Source of the DNA: Costus lasius
Lineage: Eukaryota; Streptophyta; Magnoliopsida; Zingiberales; Costaceae
NCBI GenBank assembly: GCA_027563935.2
Contig: CM050449.1
Location: forward strand, 72,940,556 to 73,004,555
Length of the DNA stretch: 64,000 nt
Direction: 5' to 3'
In this document: positions 6,577-62,417 of the stretch, one piece after another
Position numbering within the stretch: the first letter of the stretch is position 1
Layout of the letters: each line of letters starts with the position of its first letter
The notes under the pieces: generated by a model
What the model was told of the DNA's origin: nothing
Databases searched by the model: none
Seen by the model: only the letters and a program-made list of their open reading frames with translations
Program-made: the position numbers and the translations under genes

Positions 6577-6702
6577 TTTTTCATATTTTTCAAGAGAAAA
6601 GGCACTATTTAAGGCATTTTCAAGCAAAATCAAATACATGGAAGAGTTACCATCATCAAGAGGAGATCACCCAAGAAATTTTATGCAAAACGGAGCAACT
6701 CA

Positions 6703-7073
6703 GCAAATTACGGCAGTGCTGTAATCCATTTTACGGTACCGTAATTTCAGACAGTACGATAAAATCCGAGCCCTGCCGTATTTTAAAGAATTTTCGAATA
6801 GAAAGTTTTCTAGATTTTACGGCACTGCCGTAAACCAATTTACGGTACCGTATTTCAAAGCGCTTCAGAATAGAGACTTTGCCTGATTTTACGGCACCAC
6901 CGTAAGGGATTACACGGTACCGTATTTTTCGGACAATTTCGAACAGAGAGTTCAGTCGATTTTACGCCACTACCGTAAACTAGATTACGGTGTTGTATTC
7001 CCCAGATGACATCAGAACAGAAGACTCGATCGATTTTACGGCAGTGCCGTGAACTATTACACTACCGTAATTC
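6703..7073 (+). repeat. ACGG/CCGT palindromic array in 5' LTR of A
   Basis: About five degenerate units of roughly 72 bp. Each holds two self-complementary cores, TTTTACGGCACTGCCGTAA (imperfect centre) and TTACGGTACCGTAA (perfect), then a spacer resembling CAGAACAGAGAGTTCAG. Equivalent arrays occur in every LTR of this group in the window and at 14358-14792 and 37379-37740. The role is unknown; in RNA the cores could fold or pair between molecules. Confidence 0.9.
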
Positions 7074-7440
7074 TGGTTTTGAACGCGACGCCCAGGTCAA
7101 TTTCCACGCCCGATTCTTGCAGAGATGATTGCGGACGATTCAGGGCTTTATATTAGACGCCGTAAGAAGCAACAAGGGAGTTTTGGAAGAGGGGAGCACG
7201 CACCGACGGAAAGCCCCAATTTTGATCCACTGTCGAGGGAGAAATCATCATCCATGCCGCTGCCTAGGGTTTCACCACCGTGCTCGATCCAGACGATCGC
7301 CGACCATGATTTTTATACTGAAGCTTCATCTGAAGGAGGAGACAATGTGCCAGAAGTTTCAGACAGAGAGGAGATCAATTGAAGGAGAAATCAAGGAAAG
7401 AAGAGGCGCCGACACTATTCATCGCCTCAAATTGGAAATT

Positions 7441-7466
7441 ATGGCTGTGAAATACTTCACAGCCAT
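7441..7466 (+). promoter_or_regulatory. 11-bp inverted repeat in 5' LTR of A
   Basis: ATGGCTGTGAA (7441-7451), loop ATAC, TTCACAGCCAT (7456-7466). The same place in the 3' LTR (19187-19212) and in element B (24338-24363) reads ACGGCTGTGAA/TTCACAGCCGT, so the one pair that differs changes on both arms. Function unknown; a hairpin in the LTR transcript or a dimeric protein site are both possible. Confidence 0.75.
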
Positions 7467-7869
7467 GGTGTATTTTCTAAACTTCTCCTTTACTTTGATT
7501 TTCGATCTTCTGAAACCATGGAATTCTGTAACTCCTTTACCATGATAGCTTAAACTACTCTTGGGACATGGGGGAGTAGTTCACTTAATTTCCAATGACT
7601 AGATAACTATTTTTTATATATTTCGTTGCATTTAATCATAGCATGATGATTTTGCTCATGTGATAATTGTGCTTAGACTCTCTATAAGTCCATGTTATTA
7701 ATTATGTTCTTAGAATTTTCGCTATTGTCTGAAAGGTAATTGCTTGAGAATTTGGAACCCTAGAATTGCATGTTAGGAACCCTTCCTTAGGTTTGATCCA
7801 ACTTGATCTGTTGTAGTAGAATTATTGCCATGATTATAACATGAATCTATAGATCGAGTCTATTTGTCA

Positions 7870-8120
7870 AACGTGGAGATCTTGCACGAAAGTGAGGATT
7901 GGAACGTTGCAGATCCATGAGTAAAATTAGTGTCGAGGCTCGAATGCGCGAAAGTGATCCTTGAGCTTCCGCTAGAGATTATCAACCTAGAATTTAGATG
8001 CATGAAAGTGATCCTTGAGTTCATAGATTGATAATTTACTTATCTTCAACGTTGGGACAAATCTTGCGCGAAAGCGAAGATAAATCCCTGCGTGATTGTT
8101 TGCACGAGAGTGAAACAATC
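7870..8120 (+). promoter_or_regulatory. array of five GNRA-tetraloop hairpins in 5' LTR of A
   Basis: Five stem-loops of one design. H1 7870-7908: outer AACGT/ACGTT, then ATCTT/AGGAT, bulged G, CAC-GAAA-GTG. H2 7938-7966: GCTC/GAGC, 3' TT bulge, GAAT/ATCC, bulged G, CGC-GAAA-GTG. H3 7990-8022: same plan. H4 8054-8088: GGGA/TCCC, ATCTT/AAGAT, bulged G, CGC-GAAA-GCG. H5 8094-8120: GATTGTTT/AAACAATC, bulged G, CAC-GAGA-GTG. The position about 350-600 bp before the LTR end would fit the transcribed R/U5 part and leader. Other LTRs keep the folds with paired changes. The role is inferred only: packaging or dimerisation signal, or translation control. Confidence 0.8.
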
Positions 8121-8397
8121 CTTTTATTAGGTAAATTGTATCTTCATCATGATAAAATTAAATTGACGAAATCCTTTTTCATATCTAGTCATAAAAGTTA
8201 AGTGAACGAAACCCTAGTCCCAGCTTTCTCTCCGACAGTTTTCTTTCGTGTGTTTGCGATATTTGCTTGACTTTCATTCGATTGCCTAGATAGTGAAAAA
8301 TCAATTATTCAGTACTTGACAACGTAGGTCCCTGTGGATTCGATACTCTCTTTATTACTTCGTGTACCCATGCACTTGCGGGATAACAACAAGTTTT

Positions 8398-8492
8398 TGG
8401 CGCCGTTACCGGGGATTAGTCCAAAGTATATGCTTGTCAAACTTGTAGTGTTACCTTACGGTACAACAAGTTTTTGGCGCCGTTGTCGGGGA
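8398..8492 (+). promoter_or_regulatory. duplicated tRNA-Asp primer-binding site of element A
   Basis: Two PBS copies 77 bp apart: inner 8398-8415 (TGGCGCCGTTACCGGGGA) and outer 8475-8492 (TGGCGCCGTTGTCGGGGA). Each differs by one base from TGGCGCCGTTGCCGGGGA, the complement of the plant tRNA-Asp 3' end. Both are preceded by ACAACAAGTTT. The inner copy is also present in the 3' LTR (20144-20161), followed by the same 50-odd bases and a terminal ACAACA, so it now belongs to the LTR. The outer copy is probably the working PBS. Confidence 0.85.
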
Positions 8493-8615
8493 CCTTAGTT
8501 TTGTCAATATTGAAGATATTGAGATTATTGCTAGACTAGGTTTTTATTTACTATTTTTTATTTTGTTTCTGTTATTTTCTATTTTTCTTGAAATCACTTG
8601 ATCGATTTACTTTGC

Positions 8616-10198
8616 ATGCGCAGGAGTCTTAGATCAGGACCACTTGTACCAATGGATCCTGAAATTGATAGAACACAGAGAGTGTGCAGGAAGTTGAGAT
8701 TAGAAGAAGAACTGCAAGAGACATCCCAACCGGAGTTACAAAAAGAAATATTAGAGATGGGAAACAATCAGAATAATAAGAGAACACTTAGGGATTATGC
8801 AACCCCTAATCCCCAAGAAATTCATTCAAGCATTGCTAGACCAGCAATAGAGGCTAACAACTTCGAGATTAAGCCTGCTTTTATTTCAATGTTTCAACAG
8901 AATCAGTTTGGAGGATCTCCTCTGGAAGATCCCAACCAACACTTGTCTTTATTTCTTGAATTAAGCGATACTATTAAATTTAATGGTGTTTCTAGCGATG
9001 CATTGAGACTAAGACTTTTTCCTTTCTCTCTTAGGGACCGGGCAAAGACATGGCTTAATTCACAACCAGCCGGTACCTTCACCACTTGGAATCAATTGTC
9101 AAATTCTTTTTTGAACAAATACTTTCCCCCAAGCAAGACACTGCAGATGAGGAATCAAAATACAAACTTTCAACAAAGAAGTGGGGAGTCGCTCAGTGAG
9201 GCCTGGGAGAGATTCAATGAACTGCAGCGAAAGTATCCTCACCATGTCATTGAAGATTGGAGTTTACTGCAAATTTTTTATTATACATTATCTGATCATA
9301 CTAAAATGATTATGGATGCTGCTGCAGGAGGAACTATTATGAGCAAAACCCCAAATGTTGCCTTCAGACTGCTAGAGGAGATGGCATTGAATCACAATCA
9401 ATGGACTGCTGAGAGAGGAGTACTTCACAAGCCTTCTCAAGGTAAGGGTGAAAGTGAAGGATGGAAATCCTTAGTAGAGAAGGTAGACTTTTTGTGCAGT
9501 AAGTTTAATTCTATGCAACCTGCTTCTGTTTCTGCTATCACTTGTGAAATTTGTGGCAATTATGGTCATACTGCTGAATATTGTAGAATAATTGTTGATC
9601 AGGGGAATGAGCATGTGAATGCCATAGTGAATTATAATCAAAGTAGACCTAATGATCCCTATTCTAGTACATATAACCCTTGATGGAGAAATCACCCCAA
9701 CCTTTCATGGAAAAACAATAACAATACAGGGGGAACACTAAGAATAAAGGATATCAAAGACCAAATCAGAACTTTAATCAAAATCAGAATTCAAATATAG
9801 AATCCATGTTTGAAAAACTTATGGCCAGTCAAAATCAATTTATGTCTAATCAAAAACAAACCATGTCAAACCAAAATAGAAAAATTGAAGAGTTTATGTC
9901 TAAGCAAGACCAACTCATGTCAAATCAAAATAGACAAATTGAAGAGTTTAAGGAAAGTTTTCATCAAATCAACTCTAGACTGGATAGAGTAAAAGCCCAC
10001 AACAAAATTCTTAAAAACCAAATTGCACAACATGCTAGTGTACCTTACAGACCCCATGGGAAATTGCCTGCAAAACCTGAGATAAACCCTAGGGAGCACT
10101 GTAATGCCATCATGACTAGAAGTGGGAAACAACTAGGAGAACCTAGAGGGAGGTTTGAAAACACTAAAAAGGGCTTGATGATAATGAAAGGGGATTAG
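8616..10198 (+). pseudogene. Athila-type gag of element A (broken)
   Basis: The frame starts at the ATG at 8616 (MRRSLRSGPLVP) and matches gag of elements B and C (RTLRDYATPNP, NQFGGSPLEDPNQHL, FPFSLRDRAKTWL). This is the retrotransposon gag domain that builds the particle. A zinc-knuckle-like CEICGNYGHTAEYC (CX2CX4HX4C) lies near 9543-9584. A TGA at 9681-9683 interrupts it, and a further frame at 9806-10198 continues with a Gln/Asn-rich coiled segment (repeated MSNQ), then CNAIMTRSGKQLGEPRG, the conserved linker before protease. Upstream TTG/ATC codons (8598) are not needed as a start, because elements C and B align from the ATG region. Confidence 0.85.
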
Positions 10199-15439: not shown

Positions 15440-17037
15440 ATGCCAAGAACAAAGTCAATTTGTCAAAGAGAAATAGGGAGTTGAAAAGAAAAAGGGAAAG
15501 CCCCTGCAAGGTCGTCTCAACCACGAAACCCATATGGAATCATATTTAGGAATGAGATGCAGGAGGCTAGATACAACAAGCTGTTGGAAAGAAAAATTAT
15601 AAACACAAAGTATGCTGATCAAAGAACTCTTGAAGCCTTGGGGCTTTATGATGATGTACTTTGGATGTTTGAGAGAATCCAATCCAAGCAGTTCTTCCAG
15701 ATGACTCCGCACACCTATTTGCCACTTTTCTTGGAGTTCTTGAGTAGTTTGATAATTGAATTGAAGGAGTACTCTCATGGCCCTACAGAGGGAGAAATCA
15801 ATTTCAGATTAGCAAATGAAGAAAGAAAACTTACCTTGCAAGAAGTTAGAGACATCTTTGGACTGAGCATAGGAGAGTACACTAAGATACCCCTTGGATT
15901 CATGGAGAGCATATTTTGGAACCAGATCACAAATGAGAACCACTTCTATCCTGTGTCTGCCAGAGCCTCAAAAATCATGAACCCTTGTATTAAGTATGCT
16001 CATCAGGTTCTGGCACACACAGTATTTGGGAGAGGGGACAGTGACGGCATGGTCCGTCAACATGAGCTGTACTTTCTCTGGGGCATGCTCAAAGGATTCG
16101 CAGTGGATGTTGCTTATTTCATGGTTAAGCATATGGACAAGGTAGCCAGGGCAACTAGAGGGTCTGTGGTGATAGGAGGTTTGATTACTCCTATAGCTAG
16201 ACATTGTGGGATTGAGCCCTATGGAGTTGAGTTGGCAAGGGGAATGCAAGGCTCGACATCGAGTCTTGCGTAGCAATGAAGATGATCGTTAGAGAGGGTG
16301 ATACCTTTTGTTTGGTCCTTGGACCAGATGCCCCTACTCTTCCTTTACCCCATGTCCAGAAAACCACTGTCAGAGAAAGAGCCAACTAGAAGTTATCTCC
16401 CAGTGCAGCTGAAGTTACTCCACCACTGACCATAGTTCATGTTGACGGACTGCGAATCCTTTGAGCATGCCCCAGAGAAAGTACAGCTCATGTTGACGGA
16501 CCATGCCGTCACTGTCCCCTCTCCCAAATACTGTGTGTGCCAGAGAAAGTACAGCTCATGTTGACGGACCATGCCGTCACTGCCAGAGAAAGTACAGCTC
16601 ATGTTGACAGCCAACTAGAAGTTACTCCACCATTGACCATAGTTCCACCACCACCCACCTGGGGTGGAAGGGGTGATCCATATGGGATGGAGTCACCACC
16701 ACATGATTCTACACAGGCAGCCGGTCCTTCTTCACAGAGCACCAGAGGAGGTTTTGCTAGCCACCACGATCCAGGTTTCCAGGCGCTCACAGCACAAATG
16801 TATAATCAAGAACGCCACCAGGAGAGGATGGAAGAGACTCTAGGGCACATCCAGAGGGATATAGAGAGGTTATGTAATCATATGGAAGACATGGGTAACT
16901 TCCTCTTTAATTGTTTTGGTTATGCAGATCATAGAGATTATGGATACCAGGGTGATCAAGGAGGAACACCATATTATGATCCCATGGAGGCTGCTGCTAG
17001 AGATTCAGAGGCTACACGGTCAGATGGCGATGAGTAG
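15440..17037 (+). pseudogene. Athila env-position ORF of element A (broken, rearranged)
   Basis: From the ATG at 15440 the frame runs through a TGA near 15482 and on to 16273. It aligns with element C (GKAPA, TKYADQRTLEALGLYDDV, FLEFLSSL, ARATRGSVVIGGLITPIA). A 1-base loss near 16241 shifts frame, then 16437-16616 is scrambled, and 16537-17037 gives a Pro-rich linker (PPPPTWGG) and C-terminal helix (HMEDMGNFLFNCFGY). In Athila elements this ORF sits where retroviral env would be and resembles the ATHILA ORF-1 family. I see no signal peptide, clear membrane span or cysteine pattern, so an envelope role is not supported by sequence. Function unknown. Confidence 0.75.
16381..16665 (+). repeat. 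scrambled inverted copies of env-position sequence
   Basis: 16437-16616 holds the reverse complement of 16012-16102 once nearly whole (16451-16541) and twice in shorter form, joined at short matches such as AGAGAAAGTACAGCTCATG. It is flanked by a direct duplication of GCCAACTAGAAGTTA (16381 and 16610). This looks like one or more strand switches during DNA synthesis. Confidence 0.85.
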
Positions 17038-18208: not shown

Positions 18209-20214
18209 TGATGACACCAAAATATGTAGTATATTTTGCTTCATTTTGGGTACCTTTTCATGCCAAATTGAGGATCTTTTACTTGCTTTTATGTTGAATC
18301 CATTAAATATTACAAAGTCTACTTCTATTTTAGTTTTTCATGTTTTTAGGCAAAAAGGCACTATTTAAGGTGTTTTAAAGCGAAACCAAATACATAGACG
18401 AGTTACCATCATCAAGAGGAGATCACCCAAGAAATTTCACGTAAAATGGAGCAACTCAGCAAATTACGACAGTGCCGTAATCCATTTTACAGTACCATAA
18501 TTTCATATAGTACCGTAAAATCCGAGCCCTACCGTATTTTGAAGAATTTCCCAACATAAAGTTTTCCAGATTTTACAGTACTGCCGTAAACCAATTTACG
18601 GTACCGTATTTCAAAGCGCTTCAGAATAGAGACTTTGCCTGATTTTATGGCACCACCGTAAAGGATTACACGGTCCGGACAATTTCAAACAGAGAGTTTA
18701 GCCGATTTTACGGCACTACCGTAAACTAGATTATGGTGCCGTATTCCCCAGATGACATCAGAACAGAAGACTTGACCGATTTTATGGCAGTGCCGTGAAC
18801 TATTACACTGCCGTAATTCTTGTTTTGAACGCGACGCCTAGGTCAATTTCCATGCCCGATTCTTGCGGAGATGATTGTGGATGATCCAGGGCTTAATATT
18901 CGACGCCGTAAGAAGCAACAAGGGAGTTTTGGACGAGGGGAGCACACACAGACGGAAAGCCCCAATTTTGATCCACTATTGAGGGAGAAATCGGCATCCA
19001 TGCCGCCGCCTAGGGTTTCGCCACCGTGCTCGATCCAGACGATCTCCGGACATGATTTTCATACTGAAGCTTCATCTAAAGGAGGAGACGATGTGCCAGA
19101 AGTTTTAGACAGAGAGGATATCAATTGAAGGAGAAATCAAGGAAAGAAGAGGCGCCGACACTGTTCATCGCCTCAAATTGGAAATTACGGCTGTGAAATA
19201 CTTCACAGCCGTGCTGTATTTTCTAAACTTCTCTTTTCCTTTGATTTTTGATCTTCTCAAACCATGGAATTCTGTAACTCCTTTACCATGATAGCTTAAA
19301 CTACTCTTGGGACATGGGGGAGTAGTTCACTTAATTTCCAATGACTAGATAACTATTTTTTATATATTTCATTGTGTTTAATCATAGCATGATGATTTTG
19401 CTCATGTGATAATTGTGCTTAGACTCTCTATAAGTCCATGTTATTAATTATGTTCTTAGAATTTTCGTTATTGACTGAAAGGTAATTGCTTGAGAATTTG
19501 GAACCCTGGAATTGCATGTTAGGAACCCTTCCTTAGGTTTGATCCAACTTGATCTGTTCTAGTAGAATTATTGCCATGATTATAACATGAATCTATAGAT
19601 CGAGTCTATTTGTCAAACGTGGAGATCTTGCATGAAAGTGAGGATCGGAACGTTGGAGATCCATGAGTAAAACTAGTGTCGAGGCTCGGATGCACGAAAG
19701 TGATCCTTGAGCTTCTGCTAGAGATTATCAACCTAGAATTCGGATGCATGAAAGTGATCCTTGAGTTCATAGATTGATAATTTACTAATCTTCAACGTTG
19801 GGACAAATCTTGAGCGAAAGCGAAGATAAATCCCTGCGTGATTGTTTGCACGAGAGTGAAACAATCCTTTTATTAGGTAAATTGTATCTTCATCATGATA
19901 AAATTATACTGACGAAATCCTTATTCATATCTAGTCATAAAAGTTAAGTGAACGAAACCCTAGTCCCAGCTTTCTCTCCGACAGTTTTCTTTCGTGTGTT
20001 TGCGATATTTGCTTGACTTTCATTCGATTACCTAGATAGTGAAAAATCAATTATTCAGTACTTGACAACGTAGGTCCCTGTGGATTCGATACTTTCTTTA
20101 TTACTTCGTGTACCTGTGCACTTGCGGGTTAACAATAAGTTTTTGGCGCCGTTACTGGGGATTAGTCCAAAGTATACGCGTGCCAAACTTGTAGTGTTAC
20201 CTTACGGTACAACA
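18209..20214 (+). repeat. 3' LTR of element A (2006 bp)
   Basis: Starts TGATGACACC after GTGTT and ends TTACGGTACAACA. Array of palindromes 18465-18817, inverted repeat 19187-19212, hairpins 19616-19866 and internal PBS copy 20144-20161 mirror the 5' LTR. A 12-bp block present at 6924-6935 is missing here. The next 5 bp, GCCAT (20215-20219), would be the TSD, but the 5' flank is lost. Confidence 0.88.
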
Positions 20215-23346: not shown

Positions 23347-25286
23347 TGATGACACCAAATATATAGTATATTTTGTATCATTTTTTGATATCTTTTCATG
23401 CTAGATTGAATATCTTTTACTTGTTTTCATACTAAATTTATCGATTATTGCAAAGTCTACTTCTATTTTGGTTTTTCATGGTTTTCAGGTAAAAAGGCAC
23501 TATTTTTAGGCGTTTCCAAGCAAAATAAAATACATAGAAGGATTACCATCATCAAGAGGAGATCACCCAAGAAATTTCACGTAAAACGGAGCAAGGCAGC
23601 AAATTACTGCAGTGCCGTAATCCATTTTACGGTACCGTAATTCTAGACGGTACCGTAAAATCCGAGCCTTGTCGTATTTTGAGAAGTTTCCGAACAAAAA
23701 GATTTTTGGATTTTACGGCACCTGCCGTAAGCCATATTACGGTACCGTATTTCGGAGTGCTTCAGAACAGAAACTTCACCCGATTTTACGGCACTACCAT
23801 AAGAAACTACACGGGCCGTAATTTCTAGACATTCGCGAATAGAGAGTTCAGCCGATTTTAAGGCACAACCGTAAACCAGATTACGGTGCCGTAATTCCCC
23901 AACAACATCAGAACAGAAGACTCGAGTGATTTTACGGTAGTGCCGTAAGACATTACACTGCCGTAATTTCGGTTTTGAACACGACGCCCAGGTCAATTTC
24001 CATGCCCGATTCTTGCGGAGATGATTGCGAGCGATCTAGAGCCCTAAATCGAATGCCGTAAGAAGCAGAGGGGGATCGTTTCACGAGAGGATTACGGAGA
24101 GACCATAGGCCCCAATTTTCGTACACAGTCGATGGAGAAATCACGATCCACGCCGCCGCCTAGGGTTTGGCCACCGCGCTCGATCTAGACATTCTCCGGC
24201 CGTGATTTTCATACTGAAGCTTCATCGGAAGGAGGAGAGAACGTGCCAGAAGTTTCGGACCGAAAGGAGATCGATTGGAAGAGAAATGGAAGAAAAAGAA
24301 GTCGCCGGCACTGTTCATCGACGGTTCTTACAAAATTACGGCTGTGAAATACTTCACAGCCGTGCTGTATTTTCTAAACTTCTCTTTTACTTCGATTTTC
24401 GATCCTCTGAAACCATGATCTATTGTAATTCCTTCATGATAATAGCTTAAACTACTTTTGGGACATGGGGGAGTAATTCACTTGATTTCTAATGACTAGA
24501 TGACTATTTTTACTATTTCGTTGAGTTTAATATTACCATGATGATTTTGCTCATGCGATAATTGTGCTTAGACTCTCTATAAGTTCATGTTACTAATTAT
24601 GTTCTTAGAATTTTCGCTTGAGACCGAAAGGTTATTGCTTGAGAATTTGGAACCCTAGAATTGCATGTTAGGATCCCTTCCTTAGGTTAGATCTAATTTG
24701 ATCTGTTCTAGTAGATTAATTGCAATAATTATAACATGAACCTATAGATCGAGTCTATTTGTCATACGTGGAGATCTTGTGCGAAAGCAAGGATCGAAAC
24801 GTTGGAGATCCATGAGTAAAACTAGTGTTGAGACTCGGATGCACGAAAGTGATCCTCGAATCTCCACTAGAGATTATCAACATTGAATTCGGATGCACGA
24901 AAGTGATCCTTAAATTCATTGTTTGATGATTTACTTATCTTCAGCGTTGGGAAGAATCTTGCGCGAAAGTGAGGATAAATCCCTGTGCGGTTGTTTACAC
25001 GAAAGTGAACCAACCCTTTTTTTTTGTAAATTACATCTTCATCATGATAAATTTAAACTGACGAAATCCTCATTCATATCTAGTTCGTAAAAGTTAAAGT
25101 GAACGAAACCCTAGTCCCAGCTTTTCTCTCTGATAATTCCGTTTTTAGCATCCAATTTCTATTCTCATTACTTTGATTAGCCTAGATAGTAAGAAATCAG
25201 CTATTTAGTATTCGACAACGTAGGTCCCTGTGGATTCGATACTTTCTTTATTACTTCGAGTATCCGTGCACTTGCGGATCACAACA
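23347..25286 (+). repeat. 5' LTR of element B (1940 bp)
   Basis: TGATGACACC...CACAACA. Contains a palindromic array at 23603-23970, inverted repeat 24338-24363 and hairpin run about 24763-25016. H1 here has TGC-GAAA-GCA in place of CAC-GAAA-GTG, and H5 has GGTTG/CAACC in place of GATTG/CAATC, both paired changes against element A. Confidence 0.9.
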
Positions 25287-25447: not shown

Positions 25448-25880
25448 ATGGCTGAGCAAAGATCACTAAGGGACTATGCAACCCCTAATCCTCAAGGGAT
25501 ACACTTTAGCATTGCTAAACCTGCAATTGAGGCCACCAACTTTGAGATTAATCCTGCCCTCTTGACTATGATTCAGCAAAATCAGTTTGGAGGATCATCG
25601 ATCGAAGATCCTTATTTACACTTATATATTTTTCTTGAATATTGCAATACCATAAAAATTCATGGAGTTTCTGATGATGCACTAAAACTAATATTATTCC
25701 CTTTTTCTCTCAGGGATCAAGCACGATCTTGCTTGCATTCTCGTGGACCCAACACCTTCACACCGTGGGAACAATTATCAAAAGCTTTTCTCATGAAATA
25801 TTTTCCACCAAGCAACACTATCCAATTGAGGAAGCGAATCACAAACTTTCAACAAAGGAGCGGAGAATCACTCAGCGAGG
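25448..25880 (+). pseudogene. Athila gag of element B, truncated
   Basis: ATG at 25448 (MAEQRSLRDYATPNPQG) begins a clean gag frame matching elements A and C (NQFGGSSIEDPYLHLY, FPFSLRDQARSCL, NFQQRSGESLSE). At about 25875-25880 it jumps into LTR sequence; the junction shares GCGAGG/GTGAGG, a short microhomology. The frame then reads a meaningless tail to 25939. Confidence 0.85.
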
Positions 25881-26196
25881 ATAAATCCCTGTGCGGTTGT
25901 TTGCACGAAAGTAAACCAACCCTTTTTTTTTTTTTGTAAATTACATCTTCATCATGATAAATTTAAACTAACGAAATCCTCATTCATATCTAGTTCGTAA
26001 AAGTTAAAGTGAACGAAACCCTAGTCCCAGCTTTTCTCTCTGATAATTCCGTTTTTAGCTTCCAATTTCTATTCTCATTACTTCGATTAGCCTAGATAGT
26101 AAGAAATCAACTATTTAGTATTCGACAACGTAGGTCCCTGTGGATTCGATACTTTCTTTATTACTTCAAGTATCCGTGCACTTGCGGATCACAACA
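25881..26196 (+). repeat. 3' end of element B's 3' LTR
   Basis: Nearly identical to 24972-25286, from hairpin H5 to the terminal ACAACA, with a longer T run (25923-25935). It ends exactly at the TSD. Confidence 0.9.
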
Positions 26197-30056: not shown

Positions 30057-31755
30057 TGATGACACCAAAATGTATAGTAATTTTCGTGTCATTTCATGAG
30101 TATTTTTGTGTCATATTCATAGACTTTGCTTATTTTTATGCCTTTTTATCAATTATTGCAAAATCTACTTCTATTTTGGTTTTTTATAATTTTTAGGTAA
30201 AAAGTGTAATATTTTGATGGATTTTGAAGGATTTGAGCGCACGAATGGATTCAGAACGTCAAAACGAAGCCGCACGCCAATTTTCATGCAAATCGGAGCA
30301 AGTTCAAAAATTACACCCTGGGTGTAATGAAAATTAAGGTACCATAATGAAAATTATGGCAGTGCCGTAAAGGATATTAGGATACCGTAATTTTGACCCA
30401 GAATTCACCTGAGAGATTTCAGACATTATGGCACTGCCGTAAAGATTTTTACGGCCGTAATTACAACTGAAAAATGTGAGTTTTCGGGCCTGAATCTTGC
30501 GCGGACCATATCTTTTGATTCAGATGTCCAAATTGAAATCCAAAAGTTGCTGCATACTCGTCTTTAAGAGAAGAAGACACATGAAGTGAAAGAACAAATG
30601 TTTATCCAGAATCAAGGGAGCAATTGATAGAGAGGCGTCTACAGTTTGGCCCTGCGCCGAGAGGCGTAGAGGATACCTCAGGCCTCAATTTTCACACAAA
30701 AGCTTCGTTTGGAGGAGACGACGACACACCAGAAGTTTCATGGAGAAAGGAGCCCAGACGGGGGAGAAATCAACACAAAACCGTGCGCTACCGCTGTTCA
30801 TCGCAGATTACGGCCGTAATCACCATTACAGCCGTACTGTAAATTGTTTTCTCTCTCTGTTTTGATCTCCTTTACCATGAATTATTGTAATCTTCCTTCC
30901 ATGCAAGCTTAAACATCTTTGGGACATGGGGAGTAATTCACTTGATTTTTAATGATTAGATAACTTTTTACCTTTGTCAGAATAGTTTTATGATGATAAT
31001 TTTATTTATGTGAATAATTGTACTTTGATTCTCCATAGATTAATGTTATTATTCATGTTTTAGAGTTCTCACAATAAGGACCAAAAGGTGACTTGCTTGA
31101 GAACTTGGAACTCTAGAATTGCATGTTAGGAGCTCTCTTAGGTTAGTTCTTATTATTTGATTTTAGTGATCTTATTGCTATGTTTGATAATTTGAATCTA
31201 AGGTTGAGTTATTGTATTAGACTTGATTTGATCTTGCACGAAGGTAAGGATCGAGTCGTCGGAAAACCATAAGTAGAACTTATGTTGAGTCTCGGATGCA
31301 CGAAAGTGATTCTTGAGATTCCACTCGAGACAATCAACTTAGAATTCGGATGCACGAAAGAGATCTTGGAATTCTTTGATTGATGATTTACTTATCTTCA
31401 GCGTTGGGATAGATCTTGTGCGAAAGCGAGGATCGATCCCTGCATGATTGTCTGCACGAAAATGAGATGATCCCTTTAAGAAGTAAATTAAGTCTTTATC
31501 ATAATAAAATTAGTCTGCTGACCTTTTCTTCATATCTAGTCATTGAAATTAGGGTGAATGAAACCCTAGTCCCAGTTTATCTCTCTGATTATCTTTCGTA
31601 TTCTTTCTATTGCTTACTTGCATCATATCCGGTTTACTTAGCTAGTGAGAATGCAACTATTTGGTACTTAACAATAAGGTCTCTATGGGATCGATATTTT
31701 CTTTATTACTTCGAGTATCCATGCACTTGCGGACACTACAAGTTTAGGGACAACA
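30057..31755 (+). repeat. 5' LTR of element C (about 1.7 kb)
   Basis: TGATGACACC to GGGACAACA; an earlier possible end is ACTACA at 31740. It has a short palindromic region (30312-30460) and hairpins near 31229-31472, where H4 keeps GGGA/TCCC, GATCTT/AGGATC and TGC-GAAA-GCG. It resembles the minus-strand LTR at 52816-54527 and the LTR of D more than C's own 3' LTR. Confidence 0.82.
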
Positions 31756-31761
31756 AGTTTC

Positions 31762-31902
31762 TGGAGCCGTGTCAGGGAGTGACAATAGCCCTGTGCACCA
31801 ATACTTAGGTTTTGGCCGTGACACCTGAAGCAAGTCTACCTACTTGTTTTTAAAATTGTGTCCTTTCAGATCACAATAAGTTTTTGGCGCCGTTGCCGGG
31901 GA
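31762..31902 (+). promoter_or_regulatory. doubled primer-binding site of element C
   Basis: A decayed PBS at 31762-31778 (TGGAGCCGTGTCAGGGA) is followed 123 bp later by a perfect tRNA-Asp PBS at 31885-31902 (TGGCGCCGTTGCCGGGGA). Both follow an A-C-A-A-(C/T)-A-AGTTT type LTR-end sequence. Confidence 0.8.
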
Positions 31903-32051: not shown

Positions 32052-33671
32052 ATGCGCAAAAATCATAGGTCAGGACCATTAGTTCCTTTTGATCCTAAAA
32101 TTAATAGAACTCTTAGATTGCGCAGGAAGTTGAGATTTGCAGAAGGGAGAGAAGAAGAATCCATCATGGCAGAGAGGAGAACACTTAGAGACTATGCAGC
32201 CCTGAGTACACATGAAATTCGATCCAGCATTACTAGGCCTGCTATAGATGCAAACAACTTTGAGATTAAACCAGTGTTCTTGTCAATGATCCAACAGAAC
32301 CAATTTGGAGGATCTCCTTTAGAAGATCCAAACCAACACTTATCTCTTTTCCTTGAATTTTGTCACACCATGAAAATTAATGGTGTATCTGACGATGCTC
32401 TTAGACTAAGACTATTTCCTTTTTCTCTCAAGGACAGAGCAAAAGCTTGGCTTCATTCACATCCAACTGGGAGACGTTTACTACTTGGGAGCGGTTGTCA
32501 AATGCCTTCTTGTAGAAGTATTTTGCTCCTAGTAAGATGATTTAGTTGAGGAACCAAATCTTAGGCTTTGCTCAGAGAGATGGTGAATCATTTAGTGAAG
32601 CATGGGAGCACTTCAATTAGTTACAACGGAAGTGCCCTCATCATGGATTAGAAGATTGGTGTTAATTCAAACATTTTATAATGGTTTGCTCTACAACACA
32701 CGCTTAACTGTTGATGCTGCTGTAGGGGGAGCACTGATGAACAAGACTATTGATGCTGCCTATGCCTTGATTGAGGAGATGGCGCTAAATCACAACCAGT
32801 GGGTTTCTAAGAGAGGAGTGCTTTATCGGCCTTCTCATGGTAAGAACGATGGTGATGGTTGGCATTCTCTTGCAGAAAAGTAGATTCATTATGCAACCAT
32901 TTTGATTCTTTTCAAATGCAAACCGCTGCTGTATCTTCTGCTATTTGTGAAGTTTGTGGGAACCATGGGCACTATGCTGAGGAGTGCAAGGTTATAGTTG
33001 ATCAGGAGAGTGAGCAAGTTAATGCAGTGGGGGGTTACAATCATGGTAGATCTAATGACCCTTACTCCAATACCTACAATCCTGGTTGGCGGAACCATCC
33101 TAACCTGTCTTGGAAGGGTAACAATCAAACTAGTGGGCAAAATGAGAATAGGGGGTACAATCAGAGACAGTCAAACCAGAGTCAACCCCAAAAATCTAGT
33201 TTAGAAGAGATGTTTGAGAAATTCATGGGTAAGCAGATGAGCAAAAATGATGAGATTTCAGAAACCCTTAAGTAGATAAATTCTAGGTTGGATGGTGTTG
33301 TTGCTCATAATAAGATGTTAGAAACTTAGATAGCACAACAGGCTAGTGCACCTTATAGACCCCTAGGGAAGTTACCTGCAAAACCTGAACCTAACCCTAG
33401 GGAACATTGTAATGCCATCATAACCAGGAGTGGAAAACAGTTGGAAGATCTAAGGGGACCATTAGATGATGAAGAAGTTGAGCCTGATGTCATACCTAGT
33501 GATGAACCAGTTTTGGAACCACAACCCACACAAGTGTAGTCCCTTCCTAATTCTTCTCCTTCTAAGGAGGACGAGTCTTCACAGAAAGGTGACTTACCTT
33601 GTGAAGTTGAGGTACCTAGACCTAGTTCACCACCACCATATAGGACACCGATCCCTTTTCCCCAGAGGATT
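32052..33671 (+). pseudogene. Athila gag of element C (broken)
   Basis: Starts at ATG 32052 (MRKNHRSGPLVPFD) and continues RTLRDYA, NQFGGSPLEDPNQHL, FPFSLKDRAKAWL. A shift near 32475 moves to another frame (32602-32883: AAYALIEEMALNHNQW) and back near 32880. A zinc knuckle CEVCGNHGHYAEEC (CX2CX4HX4C) lies near 32949-32990. A TAG at 33273-33275 and further TAGs near 33328 and 33538 break the C-terminal part, which includes EHCNAIITRSGKQLEDLRG. The 33238-33671 part stays in the protease frame. Confidence 0.85.
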
Positions 33672-40812: not shown

Positions 40813-42733
40813 TGATGACTCTAAATTTCATAGTGTTTTTCATACTTATTTAGTAGTCTTTTGAACCATAATCTTACTCTCTTGCCTTATTTTTATACCT
40901 TTTTTACCAAAAACTTCAGAATCTACACAATCTTTGGATTTGACCAATTTCAGGTAAAAGGCCATCATTATCACTGGTTTTCGAGCAATATCAATGCATG
41001 AACGAGTTCTAAACATCAAGAGGAGTTTACACAACAAATTTCAAGTCGAAATGGACCTTCTAGAAGAAATACGGCACTACCGTATTTTTGGGCATGAATC
41101 ACACGGTACTGTATTTTGCATCAGACACTAACCAGAAGACTTGGGTGAAATACGGCACTACCATATGGAACTGCACGGTGCCATATTATTCAGCGTTTTC
41201 GACCAGAAAAGTTTGACAAGAATACGACACTGCCATATGAAGCTACACGGTACCGTATTTTCCATCAAATTTCAACCCGAGGACTTAGACAAGATACGAC
41301 ACTGCCATATGAAGTTACACGGTACCGTATTTTGTGGCAATTCTGACCATATGATTTTAGCAAAATACGGCACTGCCGTATAATTGGGCAACATGTATTT
41401 GCTGCCCAGAACTTACAGAAGGAAAATACGGCACTGTCGTAATCCAGATACAGTACCATATTTTGAAACCCAGAATTTCGAGTTTTTTGCCGCAAAATTA
41501 AAAACACGATTTCTCGAAACTTAGGGCACAAATTGAAGATCCGAAAAAAGGGGAAGATTCAGGATAAGAAGGCGGAGAGTTACAAACGAAGAATTTTCAC
41601 CGACGACTTAGGGAGAATTTGAAGAAATCGCCGCCGCGCTAGGGTTTGTCGCCGTTCGCTGCACAGACCATCTCCGGCCACGATTTTTGAAAGGAAGCTT
41701 CTCCTGAGGAAGAAGAACGCGCCACAGAAGTTTCAGAGTGAGAAGAGATCAATCGAAGGAGAAACAAAGCAAAAACACACTCGTGACATTGTTCATCGCG
41801 ACTGTGAAAGCAATTTCGGGTTGCAATTCTGTTGCAACCCTGTTTTGTAATTTTTACTGCTTCTTTACTGTCTCTAATCATTCAAAAACTATGCTTTGCT
41901 ATGAATCTTCCGTCATGCTAGCTTAATTTCCTCTTGGGACATGGGGGTGTTATTCTCTTGATATATCAATGACTAGATAACTTTTCTTACATCAATATAT
42001 TTTGCTATGGTTATTTTACTTAAGTGATTTATGCCTTTAATCATTTTTAGCATCATGCATTAACATGTTTTGGAGTTTTATGCTATGGACTGAGAAGATG
42101 ATATCATAGAACTTGGAACCCTATAATCTATAATAAGAACCCATCGCAAGAGATTGGTTGTGCTCTTATCTTTAGGTTTTAGAAGTTTATTTCTTGTTAA
42201 TGTTATGACCTAGAAATTATTATTGTTTCAAACATGAAAACATGCTAGAGATAGATGTTAGATTGTTAGAAAGCCTTAAGTAAAACCTGTGAAACTAAGG
42301 TGCGAGAGTGCTTTGTTTCGCTTGAGATCTTGGTATTGAGATGGAATGCACGAGAGTGATTCTTAATCTCTTTAACCAAAGTTCACTTATATTTAGCATT
42401 GAATTGATCTTACATGAGAGTGAGGATCGTTCTTTGCAAATTAACTGCACAAGAGTGAGTTAGTTTGTTTGTCAAGTGAATTATATCTTGACCATAACAA
42501 AAATAGATTGATGAATCTTTAATCATATCTAGTCATAAATATTAAGATGAATGAACCCCTAGTCCCGATTCTCTCATTCTGATTTTCTCCAATCACCGTT
42601 CGATTGCTATTTTCACGATTCTCGATTCGCTTAGCTAATGAAAACTCAATTGGTCAGTACTTAACAACGAGGTCTATGTGGTTCGATATCTTAAATATTA
42701 CTTCGAGTATCCGTGCACTTGTGGAGTACAACA
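40813..42733 (+). repeat. 3' LTR of element C (1921 bp, different subfamily from its 5' LTR)
   Basis: TGATGACTCTAAATTTCATA...AGTACAACA. Closest in the window to the solo LTR at 60516-62417 (same start and phrases such as TCTTTTGAACCATAATC). Palindromic array 41068-41463; hairpins about 42291-42466, where stem II is GAAT/ATTC instead of GGAT/ATCC and loops are GAGA. Confidence 0.88.
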
Positions 42734-52815: not shown

Positions 52816-54527
52816 TGTTGTGTCTGCAAGTGCACGGATACTCGAAGTAATAAAAAATATCGATCCCACAAAGACCTATGTGCTAAGTGCCAAATAGTTG
52901 TATTCTTACTAGCTAAGCAATCGATTATAATGCAAATAAATGATAGGAAGAGTATAAAGATAAACAGAGAGAGAAACTGGGACTAGGGTTTCATCCGCTT
53001 TAATTTCTATGACTAGATATGAATAAAAGGTCGTCAGTCTAATTTCATCATAATAAAGACATAATTTATTGCAAAAAAGGATTATCTTACTTTCGTGCAG
53101 ACAATCATGCAGGGACTAATCCTCGCTTTCGCGCAAGATCTATCCCAACGCTGAAAATAAGTAAATCATCAAACAAAGAACTCACGGATCACTTTTGTGC
53201 ATCCGAATTCTAAGTTGATTATCTCAAGTGGAATCACAAGGATCACTTTCGTGCATCCGAGTCTCAACACAGGTTCTACTTATGGTTTTCCGACGTTTCG
53301 ATCCTTGCTTTCCCACAAGATCTTCCCATTTGACAAAATAACTCAATCCTAGATTCTTTTTATCAAACATGACAATTATTATTCTAAAATCAGGAAATAA
53401 GAACTAACCTAATTTCTTATAGTGAGTTCCTATTATTCAATTTTAGGGTTCCAAGTTCTCAAGCAAGTCACTTTTCAGTCTATTGCAAAAACTCTAGAAT
53501 CATGCATGATAATAAGAAAACTATGGAGAATCATAAAGCAATCTATCACATAAGTAGAATCATCATAATAAAACTATTCTGACGAAAATAAAAGTTATCT
53601 AGTCATAAGAAATCAAAGTGAATTACTCTCCCATGTCCTAAAATATGATTAAGTTAGCATGGAAGAGAAAATACAATCAACCATATTATCAAAGTGCTAG
53701 AAATCAAAGAAGAAGGAGAAATAACGTTACAGCACGGCTATAATGAAAATTACAGCTGTAATTTTGGTTGAAAACTTGCTGTGAACAGTGCCCGCAACCC
53801 TTCTTTCGTTGATTTCTCCTCCAACCGAGATCCTTTCACTCTGAAACTTCTGTGATGTCCTCCCCTCCACTAGACGAAACTTCAGTGTAAAATTCACTGC
53901 CTGAGGTGACCTCCACGCCTCTCGGTGCGCGGCCAAACCCTAGAGACGCCTCTATTGATTGCTCCCTGAATCATTCATAAAAATTAGGGCTTTTGCTCTC
54001 TTTATCTTCTACTCATTGAGATGAGTCTGTAGCTTCTTTCGGATCCCAATTTGGAGGTCTAGATCTCCAAAAATTGTCTGCGTAAAAATCGGGCCTGGAA
54101 AAATCACATGTCCAGGTAGTAATTACGGACGTAAAAAGCATTACGACAGTGCCGTAATTTGGTTATGTGAATTCTGGGTCAAAATTATGGTACCCTAATA
54201 TTCATTACAGCACTGCCGTAGTTTCTGGGTAGAAAATTAAGGTACCATAATTTTTATTAAACCCGGAGGTGTAATTTTTCAAACTTGCTCCGATTTGCAT
54301 GAAAATTGGCGGGCGGCTTCGTTTCGACGTCTGGACTCCATTCTTGCGCTCAAATCCTTCAAAATCTATCAAAATATAGAAGTTTTTACCTAAAAATCAT
54401 GAAAAATAAGAAATGGTGTAGATTCCACAATATTTGACAAATAAGGCTTAAAAACAAGCAAAAGATCATAAATATAACACAAAAAGATATATAAAATGGC
54501 ATGAAATTTACTATAAATTTTGGTGTT
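52816..54527 (-). mobile_element. Athila LTR on minus strand, probably a solo LTR, right end eroded
   Basis: On the plus strand it starts TGTTGTGTCTGCAAG, the complement of a normal LTR 3' end. The other end reads TTGGTGTTA where GGTGTCATCA is expected, so the terminal bases and TSD partner (left flank ATCTT) are lost. Hairpins at 53080-53303: H4 has CGC-GAAA-GCG with GGGA/TCCC, and H5 has GATTGTCT/AGATAATC. Palindromes at 54120-54280. No internal domain. Confidence 0.85.
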
Positions 54528-55346: not shown

Positions 55347-57209
55347 TGATGACACGAAAATTCATAGTATATTTTGTGTCATTTAATTGGTCTTTTTTTG
55401 GCATATTTTATGCTATTTTGCTTGTTTCTAAAGCCTTATTTGTCAAATATTGCGGAATCTATATTATTTCTTATTTTTCATCATTTTTAGGTAAAAAGTG
55501 CCATATTTTGATGGAGTTTGAAAGGTCCGAGCACACTAATGAATTCTAGACGTCGAGACGAAGTTACCCATCAATTTTTATGCAAATCGAAGCAAGTTTG
55601 AAAATTACACCCCGGGTGTAATTTTTATTATGACTCGTAATTTCTGTCACAAAATGCACAGAGGCAAATTAAGGCAGTGCCGTAATAAAAATTACACTAT
55701 CGTAATATCTGCCTAGAAATACACAGAAAGAATTATGACACTGCCGTAATAATTTTTACAGGTTGTAATTGTTCCAGCAAAATTCACAGAAGATATTACG
55801 GCACTACCATAATAAAAATTACACTGCCGTAATTATATTCTTGAGTGAGTTTTCCGCTGCCTACAAAATGCAATTTTTTCGAAGCCAAATTAGAAAGATC
55901 CAAGGCACGATTTTAAAATTCGTTAAAATAGGATTGTTCTACAAGAGGAGGAGAAGATTTGAGTACAAGAATCATCCAATTTCATCACCAATCAAGGGAG
56001 AAATCGAGGAGGGCATCCTTAGGGCTTGGCCTCTCACCGAGAGGCATAGAGGCCACCTTAGGCCGTAAAATTTACAGGAGAGCTTCGCCCAAGGGAGGAG
56101 AGGATACACCAAAAATTTCAGATCGAACGGAGTTCAAACAAGGGAGAAATTCGAGAAATAAATTTTGGGCTGAAGCTGATTTTCACAATTTACTGTAGTA
56201 GCATACTATTCACAGACACTATAGCTGGTTACTGTAGGAGCACTGTAGCAACACTGTAGCAACCCGAAAATCTATAAAATCATGGGCTGCGAAATTTTTG
56301 ACACCTTTGTGATTATAGTAAACCCTTGTTCTCTCTTTTTATCTGAATTCTGATTTTTTATGAATTTTTATTGTATTTTTAACTCCATGGTTGCGTAACT
56401 TTTCTTGGGACATGGGGGTGTAATCCCCTTAATTTCATAATGAATAGATGATCCTTATTTCGTCATGATATTTTTGTTATGATAATTCTACTTAAGTGAT
56501 GATTGTCTTTAATCTCTTCTAGTTTCATATTGTCATCATGTATTAGAGTTTTTGTGATATGGATTGAAAGGTGACTTGCAAAAAATTGGAACCCTAGAAT
56601 CGTGATTTATGAACTCATCGTAAGAAATTAGGTTTGTTCTTATTTCTAGATTTTAGAAGTTTAATAACTTGTTGAAAATTTGATCTAGGAGACATTAATG
56701 AGTTAAACATGAAGATATTGTAAGAAATTAAGTATCGGATCGTTGTAGAACCTTAAGTAGAACATGTGAATCTTAAGTATAAAAGTATTTAGTTTTCAGT
56801 TGAGATAATTGACATAAAGATTGGATGCATGAAAGTGATCTTAAATCTTTTTGTCAATGATTTACTTATCTTTACCATTGAGTAAATCTTGTGCAAAAGT
56901 GAGGATTGGTTTTTTGTAAATTGTCTACACAAAAGCGAGATGATTTCTTTATAAAGTAAATTATATCTTTATCATAATAAGAATAAACAGATGATCATTT
57001 AATTATATCTAGTCATTGAAATTTAGGTGGAAGAAACCCTAGTCCCAGCTTTCCTCTCTGACTTTTTGTATACTTTTCGATCGTTCGCTTACATCATATT
57101 CGATTTGCTTAGCTAGTGAGAAAATAACTATTCGGTACTTAACACGTAGGTCCCTGTGGTTCGATATCTTTTATTACTTCGAAGTATCCATGCACTTGCG
57201 GACACAACA
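55347..57209 (+). repeat. 5' LTR of element D (1863 bp)
   Basis: TGATGACACG...GACACAACA. Palindromic array 55605-55835 is weak; hairpins near 56808-56967 keep the plan with loops GAAA or AAAA (for example AATCTTG-TGC-AAAA-GTG-AGGATT). Three near repeats of CACTGTAGCAAC occur at 56240-56265. Confidence 0.88.
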
Positions 57210-60515: not shown

Positions 60516-62417
60516 TGTTGTGTCCGCAAGTGCACGGATACTCGAAGTAATAAAATAGATATCGAACCACAGAGACCTTGTTGTTAAGTACTGAATAATC
60601 GATTTCTCGCTAGCTAGGCAATCGAAAAATAGTGAATCAAACTATTGAAAAGGACATGGAAAAAATATGAGAGAGGAAATCAGGACTAGGGGTTCATCTA
60701 CTTTAATTTCTAATGGCTAGATTAAGATAAGTGTCTGTCAATCCAATTTTACCATGATAAAGGTATAGTTTACCTGATAAATAAATTGTTTCACTCTCGC
60801 GCAAACAATCGTACAAAGAACCGATCTTCACTCTCGTGCAAGATCTATTCAATGCTGAAAATAAGTAAACCATCAACTAAGAACTCAAGGATCACTCTCG
60901 TGCATCCGAATTCTAAGTTGATAACCTCAAGTGGAAACTCAAGATCACTCGCGTGCATCAGAGTCTCAACACAAGTTTTACTCAAGGTTTTCTGACGACT
61001 CGATACTCAATCTCTTGTAGCATCAAATCAAGTCTAAAATATTAACTCAATCCAAAGAATCATAAAACCAATAAGGCATTAAATTTCTCTAAGAATTAGA
61101 ATTCGAAGAATAACCTAATCTCTTACGATAGTTCCAAACTCGATAATTCCTAGGGTTCCGAATTTCAAGCAATCAACTTCTCAATCTATTTTACAAAATT
61201 CTAAATCGTGCTGATATTAAGAAACAGAGGAGAATTAAAGAACAATCAATTCACAAAAGTAAAATTATCACAATAAAATTAGTTTGACAAAATTAGGGTT
61301 TTCTAGTCATTAAGAAACAAAGAGATTACACCCCCATGTCCCAAAGAAAGATTAAGCTACCATGATGAAGGAATTACAATAAAACATGTTTCTGTATGAA
61401 TAGGAATCAAAAAGAGGAGAAAATAGTTACAAAACAGTGCTGTAATGAAATTACAGCACCGTAATCGCCTAGAACAACGCTGTCACCGCTGTTTCATTGA
61501 TTTCTCCTCCAATCGGAATCCTTTTGCTTTGAAACTTCCAATGTGAGTTCTCCTTCACCAGGTGAAGCTCTCTGCTAAATTTCGTGGCCGGAGGTGGTCT
61601 ACAGGCTGAGAACTGATGAACCCTAGAAATTCCACCTCTCTATCAATTTCTCCCTCAATACTGGATAAAAATTAGTCCTTTCACTTTTTCTGTCTTCTCC
61701 TCCTAAAGATGAGTCCGCAGCATCTTTCGGATCTCAATTTGGAGGTGTGGATCAAAAGTTATGGCCCGCGCAAGGATCGGGCCCGTAAAAATTACGTTTT
61801 TGACTGGAAATTACGGCCGTGTTATATGTTATAGCAGTTCCGTATTTTAGTTCTGTGCACCGTAGGTCAAAATTACGGTCCGTAAAATGCTTTATGGCAG
61901 TGCCGTAAAATTGGCTGAACTCTCTGGTTGAAGTCGTTTGGAAAATACGGTAGCGTAAAATGGTTTACAGCACTACCATAATTTCTACAAAAGTCTCTGG
62001 TATGAAGCGCTCCAAAATACGGCTGTGTAATTATTTACGGCAGTGCCGTAAAATTAGGAAAACTTTCTGGTCAGAAAAATCCTCAAAATACAGTAGTGGC
62101 TCGATATTACGGTAGAGTACGAAAATACGGTCCAGTAATATATATTACGACACTACCGTATTTTGGTGAGTTGCTCCGTTTTGCATGAAATTTGTCGGGT
62201 AGACTCCTCTTGATGTCTAGAACTCGTTCATGCGTTGGGATTGCTCAAAAACCGGTGATAATGATGCCTTTTTGCCTGAAATTGATCTAAAACCAAAGAT
62301 GGTGTAGATTCCGAAGCATTTGGCAAAAAAGGAATAAAAACGAAGCAAAAGAGTAAGATTATGGTTCAAAAGACTACCAAATAAGTATGAAAAACACTAT
62401 GAAATTTAGAGTCATCA
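60516..62417 (-). mobile_element. Athila solo LTR on minus strand (1902 bp), TSD CACAT
   Basis: Plus-strand ends TGTTGTGTCC and AGAGTCATCA; CACAT at 60511-60515 and 62418-62422. Same subfamily as element C's 3' LTR. Hairpins 60783-60990, all with GAGA-type loops (on the minus strand GGATG-CAC-GAGA-GTG-ATCC); palindromic array 61803-62165. No internal sequence. Confidence 0.95.

Follow-up and report, generated by a model that had tools for sequence, protein, structure and literature searches.

In the coat-protein operator of MS2/R17, an A is bulged out two base pairs beneath an ANYA loop. In the accounts consulted in part, the retroviral packaging signal Psi is made of several small stem-loops in a structured RNA, some of them with purine tetraloops, as in human immunodeficiency virus type 1 (HIV-1; Psi and the dimerisation initiation site, DIS) and in the tandem hairpins of Moloney murine leukaemia virus (MoMuLV). 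The HIV-1 nucleocapsid has a high affinity for the GGAG loop of Psi, according to the passages concerned (PMC7599994), and the Psi of mouse mammary tumour virus (MMTV) and feline immunodeficiency virus (FIV) are, in the excerpts available, also held together by long-range interactions. Here we describe an array of small hairpins in the long terminal repeats (LTRs) of Athila retrotransposons, contained in a 64,000-nt stretch of the Costus lasius genome (the window; positions 72940556-73004555 of contig CM050449.1, genome size 1.28 Gb). Unlike Psi, the Athila array consists of five to six copies of one plan with a fixed bulged G and lies inside the LTR, upstream of the primer site; binding by Gag is predicted. 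Its hairpins resemble the MS2/R17 operator in that a longer stem, a 5′ purine bulge and a few base pairs lead up to a short loop, and the operator too is described, in the part of the source concerned, as having several sites per genome (PMC4751978). However, the bulged base in Athila is a G three pairs below a GNRA loop, element and protein are unrelated, and the Athila hairpins do not show the MS2-type combination of bulged A, two base pairs and ANYA.

Related signals have been reported in other LTR retrotransposons. BARE and BARE2 carry conserved dimerisation and packaging signals that are kept by the non-autonomous partner (PMC3735527); they are plant retrotransposons like Athila but belong to the Ty1/copia lineage, and a hairpin array is not described in the passages concerned. 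The RNA of yeast Ty3, a member of the same Ty3/gypsy group as Athila, has a well-structured 5′ end with packaging and dimerisation sequences (PMC11381356, in the text of which, as far as available, the word tetraloop does not occur). Sireviruses, also plant retrotransposons, contain highly conserved non-coding motifs (PMC2829016) but are copia elements, and the listed part of that paper holds no claim of an RNA fold. An LTR survey, in the section concerned, could not model plant Metaviridae owing to LTR length variation (PMC3601003). Among the literature matches listed, with subscription papers mostly outside the search, there was no such array in Athila or other plant gypsy LTRs, and no account of how Athila RNA is chosen for particles was found in the literature searched. 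The array would fall among the structured cis-acting RNAs of LTR elements.

The hairpin plan and its paired changes

Eight LTR copies in the window (A5 and A3, which are the two LTRs of a single element, and B to G) carry an array. Because A5 and A3 belong together, the eight copies on which the original prediction was built represent seven independent insertions. The shared plan comprises five sense-strand hairpins per LTR, H1 to H5, each built, from the base upwards, of stem II, a single G bulged on the 5′ side, stem III of 3 bp and a GNRA loop at the tip. The stem beneath the bulge is unbroken in H1, H4 and H5, and in H2 and H3 it is a 4-bp stem followed by a 3′ TT bulge and an outer stem. 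The hairpin table covers 39 hairpins (H1-H5 of the eight copies, with the H2 of F omitted), and 316 of their 329 stem II/III pairs form. A bulged G is present in 35 of these hairpins and a bulged A in 4; 34 have a GNRA loop, and the remaining loops are AAAA (3), AAGA (1) and GAAG (1). The array was thus found as predicted at all eight places, with a bulged base that is usually G. Stem III variants CAC/GTG, CGC/GCG and TGC/GCA, the stem II variant GAAT/ATTC (at 42352, in LTR D) and the H5 variant GGTTG/CAACC in B are all real. The spans first given do contain hairpins, but they leave out the H1 of D (42248), F (56724), G (61014) and E (53312).

Five hairpins are not the upper limit either, since D, E, F and G carry a sixth one of the same plan, H0, upstream of the others. 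H0 was also present in 8 of 10 genome loci checked (L020 and L062 were without it under the pattern used), and A, B and C lack it, with a short gap at the position of its loop in the alignment. Spacing between loops is 62, 54, 66 and 36 nt in an A copy (L002) and 62, 54, 64 and 37 nt in a G-type copy (L060). For A5, C, D, E, F and G, the coordinates put H5 264-271 nt upstream of the 3′ end of the LTR; where there are two LTR ends, as in A and C, the first was used.

With a strict descriptor (a GNRA loop on 3 bp, a single 5′ bulge and 4 bp or more below it), 24 hairpins were found in the eight arrays, 2,202 nt in all, when these were read in the sense direction, and none in the antisense. In 200 dinucleotide shuffles of the same bases the mean was 0.20 and the maximum 2. 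The whole window contained 27 such hairpins on both strands, compared with a mean of 5.3 and a maximum of 12 in 30 whole-window shuffles. Fold z-scores against 60 shuffles per array extended from -5.98 in A3 to -1.97 in F; the value for C (-2.32) is weak. The sense strand folded better than the antisense in 8/8 copies both by energy and by z-score, the advantage by z-score being marginal in F (-1.97 vs -1.94) and G (-3.82 vs -3.71). No Rfam family matched the arrays at the gathering score.

We then compared pairing between copies. Results showed that 93.3% of the 631 cells of the eight window copies were paired, with a two-sided change at 28 of 82 pairs (shuffled mean 13.3, standard deviation (sd) 2.4) and in 42 cells (16.0 after shuffling); no shuffle of 500 was as high in any of these three measures. 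A set of 14 arrays, 7 from the window and 7 from the genome, some of them closely related, gave 94.4% paired among 1098 cells and two-sided changes at 32 of 81 pairs (shuffled 18.6, sd 2.4) and in 89 cells. When the set was reduced to nine arrays, one per type (B, C, E and F from the window and five from the genome), 94.2% of 702 cells were paired, and two-sided changes occurred in 51 cells and at 31 of 81 pairs (shuffled 14.4, sd 2.4; 0/1000 as high); the control for this set was shuffling alone, with no slid registers. Sliding the register lowered the paired cells to 33.8-48.1% in the window copies and 34.0-48.2% in the 14 arrays, a comparison that favours the tested structure, partly derived from the same copies with RNAalifold. 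The alignment of H2 is imperfect in D and F, and judged by eye this lowered the pairing counts instead of raising them. Arms taken from the same copy paired in 96.0% of cases (316/329) and arms crossed between copies in 85.8% (1669/1946), and 0/5000 permutations reached the observed value.

The changes can be followed in individual stems. H1 stem III reads CAC/GTG in the A and C families, TGC/GCA in B and the E family, CTA/TAG in D, TAA/TTA in F and CAA/TTG in G. The outer stem of H3 is GAATTC/GAGTTC in A3, GAGAT/ATCTC in D and AAGATT/AATCTT in F, while one outer pair of H2 is G-C, A-U or U-A depending on the copy. A selected secondary structure, as originally proposed from paired changes, is well supported, since two-sided changes and paired cells exceed all shuffles and all slid registers, the sense strand folds better and G.U outnumbers A.C. 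Two points pull the other way. Further pair types stayed at chance, both in the window copies (59; 139/500 shuffles) and in the 14 arrays (226/500 shuffles). In addition, all arrays come from one genome and their families are related, so that the shuffles, which ignore phylogeny, overstate independence.

H1 resembles H4 and H2 resembles H3, a likeness which suggests that some of the hairpins were probably made by duplication. Such a duplication would suit a reading of the hairpins as old DNA inverted repeats, such as transcription-factor sites or duplication leftovers, with no RNA role. We regard this as highly improbable in view of the excess of two-sided changes over shuffles, of the 81 G.U against 17 A.C in the nine-array test (a comparison that favours G.U, since such pairs were permitted in choosing the structure), of the better sense fold in all copies and of the confinement of strict array hairpins to the sense strand.

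The RNAalifold consensus also contained a long closing stem around H2 and H3. This modelled stem is less certain than the hairpins, because there is little variation in its inner part and because A5, folded as a single sequence, pairs this stretch differently. An extra outer pairing of the A5 H1, read from the sequence (7870-7874 with 7904-7908), clashes with the foot of the closing stem. GNRA is a well-established docking motif, and the enclosure of H2 and H3 would suit a device that compacts or dimerises the RNA through contacts of its loops with stems or receptors, either in cis or from one genome to another. This explanation is unlikely: GAAA and GAGA are not self-complementary, so that no kissing pair can be drawn, and docking leaves the bulged G at a fixed 3-bp distance unexplained. 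A kissing-loop dimer site was rejected on the same ground, as these loops cannot self-pair.

Bulge and loop across the genome

The genome was sampled with LTR queries that returned 9108, 6667, 5328, 10029 and 8667 first-look candidates, of which 40 were scored each time. This sampling spans families A, G, D, E and C, while B and F are known from the window alone. In families A (30 loci), G (30) and D (6, fetched from 40 listed places), bulged G and GNRA were the majority at all 15 hairpin positions, in a survey that took the best register within 5 nt and hence leans towards the plan. The lowest positions were the G-type H2, with GCGA in 20/30 loci and GAGA in the other 10, and the G-type H3, with GNRA in 25/30. 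For families E and C, 11 and 12 of 40 listed places, hand-picked for identity spread, were fetched. A scan of these 23 loci, which requires a near-GNRA loop and reports only hairpins passing thresholds, recovered 95 of 115 plan hairpins, 3 to 5 per locus, with a bulged G in 89 and GNRA in 92, and no plan hairpin on the opposite strand (one chance match each in L078 and L079 was left uncounted). A profile of H4-H5 (R1) gave 22 matches in the window at E-values up to 10, all in LTR sense and all in the arrays or in a remnant at 25855, the top eight being its own training rows.

Bulged A and AAAA loops were considered as real variants of the D, G, C and E families and rejected, as most sister copies keep G and GNRA. 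For the same reason we read several of the odd window loops and bulged A's as decayed copies, and by eye several odd hairpins look like C-to-T decay at CG. Stems turn over as pairs while bulge and loop hardly change.

The third loop base was the common one of its element in 42/44 hairpins (shuffled mean 33.5, maximum 41 in 20000), in a table compiled by hand in which A, D and G were entered by family state and X_L014 and Y_L020 are single copies. This base is an A in elements B, C, E and F but a G in D and the G-type, and families with different loop types coexist in one genome. We consider the sharing within elements a lead, not proof. Repeated identical sites are also typical of export elements, and a host RNA-binding protein might recognise the hairpins, for instance to export unspliced RNA from the nucleus or to stabilise it. 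A single reader of this kind does not predict that co-resident families use different loop types in nearly all their hairpins, and we consider it improbable; since loop type is common within an element and differs between co-resident families, a reader encoded by the element fits better.

Host elements and neighbouring features

Matches to PF03732 (gag), protease, PF00078 (reverse transcriptase, RT) and PF03078 (ATHILA open reading frame, ORF) were detected in the window elements, and therefore the hairpin-bearing LTRs belong to the Athila lineage of Ty3/gypsy, Metaviridae. A D-type genome copy (L069) likewise has gag, protease, RT and ATHILA matches, and its integrase was recognised by eye in its reading frames. 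Among the best 120 of 2607 gag relatives, the named ones listed were flowering plants, with Asparagus at the top. A CCHC knuckle is present in the Gag of element A, in that of the element flanked by LTRs C and D, and in that of one G-type copy. The internal part of element F contains a zinc knuckle, CDICGCFDHYTSDC, at 57715, yet no match to A-type Gag at an E-value of 1e-3. Searches of plasmids for related sequences gave no match, and no Athila RT relative was confirmed among viral contigs, by a search able to find close relatives only.

Four LTRs start with TGATGACAC (18209, 23347, 30057 and 55347), A5 being without its first part, and LTR 3′ ends read ...CAACA or a near variant. We take the tract past the LTR end of element A at 8468 to be a primer binding site (PBS), and its tRNA is likewise presumed. 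The A-type LTR also holds an internal PBS-like copy (8391-8471), in which a sequence resembling an LTR end at 8391 precedes a PBS-like tract and the end recurs at 8468, ahead of the presumed true PBS. The same 77-nt tail is carried by the 3′ LTR (20130-20214), and C has a degenerate version near 31755-31785. Coordinates are collected in the table.

Features of the hairpin arrays and of their host elements in the window
Feature	Position	Strand	Description or basis
Upstream 14-bp non-GNRA hairpin, A	7438..7469	+	
H1, LTR A5	7878..7900	+	GATCTT / bulged G / CAC-GAAA-GTG / AGGATT
Closing stem, LTR A5	7905..8051	+	arms ~7905-7925 and 8035-8051; RNAalifold, paired-change tests
H2, LTR A5, with outer stem and 3′ TT bulge	7935..7969	+	hairpin table, paired-change test
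H3, LTR A5, with two outer stems and 3′ TT bulge	7981..8032	+	RNAalifold, paired-change tests
H4, LTR A5	8054..8088	+	outer stem GGGA/TCCC; hairpin table, paired-change test
H5, LTR A5	8094..8120	+	GATTGTTT / G / CAC-GAGA-GTG / AAACAATC; hairpin table, paired-change test
Presumed primer binding site, element A	8471..8492	+	TTTTTGGCGCCGTTG
gag of element A (PF03732)	8598..9683	+	zinc knuckle CEICGNYGHTAEYC at 9543
ATHILA ORF of element A (PF03078)	15557..16273	+	gives the lineage its name
H1-H5, LTR A3	19624..19866	+	3′ LTR of the element of A5; hairpin table
H1-H5, LTR B	24773..25015	+	hairpin table
Array remnant, second truncated LTR piece of element B	25855..25925	+	R1 model match, 42.5 bits
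H1-H5, LTR C	31230..31472	+	hairpin table
Upstream non-GNRA hairpin, D	41818-41840		
H0, LTR D	42137..42166	+	loop 42150; lower stem imperfect
H1-H5, LTR D	42239..42465	+	hairpin table
H1-H5, LTR E	53080..53322	-	hairpin table
H0, LTR E	53400..53429	-	loop 53416; bulge A
H0, LTR F	56611..56640	+	loop 56624
H1-H5, LTR F	56714..56945	+	H2 decayed; hairpin table
H1-H5, LTR G	60784..61024	-	hairpin table
H0, LTR G	61106..61135	-	loop 61122
Upstream non-GNRA hairpin, G	61434-61462		

Some elements depart from the standard structure. Between 30057 and 42733, one internal region lies between a C-type and a D-type LTR, with a protease 94% identical to that of the D-type copy L069; this element, whose 5′ LTR differs in type, is a hybrid or nested element. 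The end of LTR B (24968-25286) is repeated with 96% identity 0.9 kb downstream (25874-26196), which probably reflects an internal deletion with a breakpoint inside the array. In at least 12 LTR pairs of the G, E and C types, the two LTRs lie on one strand just 5.7-6.3 kb apart. In two G-type internal regions (L067 and L068; LTR spacing ~6 kb), gag and protease are kept and RT and the ATHILA ORF were not seen. These short G-type elements are probably non-autonomous elements that keep gag.

Further observations concern LTR stretches outside the arrays. The upstream 14-bp hairpin has no GNRA loop and a stem that differs by family (GGCTGTGAA, GGGTTGCAA, GGTGCTGTAAT); it stays paired in A, B, D and G and is broken or absent in C and F, with no stem of at least 8 bp. 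TTGGGACATGGGGG, at 7561-7574, is nearly invariant across the eight aligned LTRs. Palindrome repeats TTTACGGCAGTGCCGTAA / TTACGGTACCGTAA occur at 6690-7060, in the presumed unique 3′ region (U3) of A, with similar stretches in D, F and G. The only Rfam match in the window is snoR71 (32544-32649 on the minus strand, 54.4 bits, gathering 40), antisense in the gag region, perhaps due to a retrotransposon-derived seed in Rfam.

Position in the transcript and possible readers

BLAST similarity of A to C and E starts at 7499 and 7540 and reaches the LTR end, which hints at a conserved repeat and unique 5′ region (R-U5) and would place the array in the 5′ leader. A separate match of A to G lies upstream at 6654-6979, and a loose alignment is possible from ~7190. 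The U3 of LTR elements is transcribed at the RNA 3′ end, so that LTR sequence is present in genomic RNA whichever part of the LTR holds it. As a consequence, the array stays in the RNA even if transcripts start downstream of it.

Packaging, dimerisation and translational control were first put forward as guesses. Our favoured reading, held at somewhat less than even confidence and built by analogy, is that the array may act as a multi-site binding platform in genomic RNA, predicted to be read by the element's zinc-knuckle Gag for packaging. The array would lie in the 5′ leader (R-U5), a protein would recognise bulge plus loop, and this protein would be the element's own Gag, which would thereby select that RNA for particles. 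The analogy comes from the row of small bulged-purine hairpins, which resembles coat-protein operators and retroviral Psi. The G-type family, whose two short elements show no RT or ATHILA ORF, keeps the array.

Several points weaken this reading. Replacing the GGAG loop of HIV-1 Psi hardly affected packaging, in the passages concerned (PMC7599994), and by the same analogy a conserved loop need not be a packaging contact. Loop sharing has exceptions: A has GAGA in H5 and GAAA in the others, and Y_L020 contains one odd hairpin. In D and G it may go back to one ancestral switch. An intact knuckle was not seen in the gag of L068 or L069. Since the G-type elements keep gag, they cannot separate RNA signals from translation signals. 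Finally, a TATA-like site at 7149 was rejected as a start marker, being absent in at least five sister copies (L003, L014, L026, L027 and L030) in a check for which minus-strand loci were not oriented and hence uninformative.

A more specific form of the Gag reading would be a modular, multi-copy packaging code, in which the five to six bulged-G GNRA hairpins bind Gag together and co-resident Athila families discriminate their own RNA from that of others by a GAAA/GAGA switch of nearly all loops. We offer this form with considerable doubt.

The leader could also serve translation. Ribosomes bypass or enter the structured leaders of caulimoviruses, and a long Athila leader might likewise be passed by shunting, or internally entered, near gag. 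If transcription starts near 7150-7190, the leader would measure ~1.2 kb, with a further ~130 nt before the gag frame begins. Some of its stretches are structured: the same scan that gave a z-score of -4.6 for the array stretch (7900-8149) gave -5.88 for another LTR stretch (7275-7524). The two G-type elements without RT still encode gag, as translation control would have it. Nevertheless, a set of five small, almost identical hairpins whose bulge and loop are fixed suggests repeated protein sites and not one large bypass stem, and we find this explanation rather unlikely.

Athila elements are abundant in plant genomes, and in the present one each LTR query returned thousands of first-look candidates. 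A fold defined by paired changes is a concrete piece of these elements to probe, to bind and to seek in other plants. Should Gag prove to be the reader, the loop switch could be used to examine how related elements that share a nucleus avoid cross-packaging.
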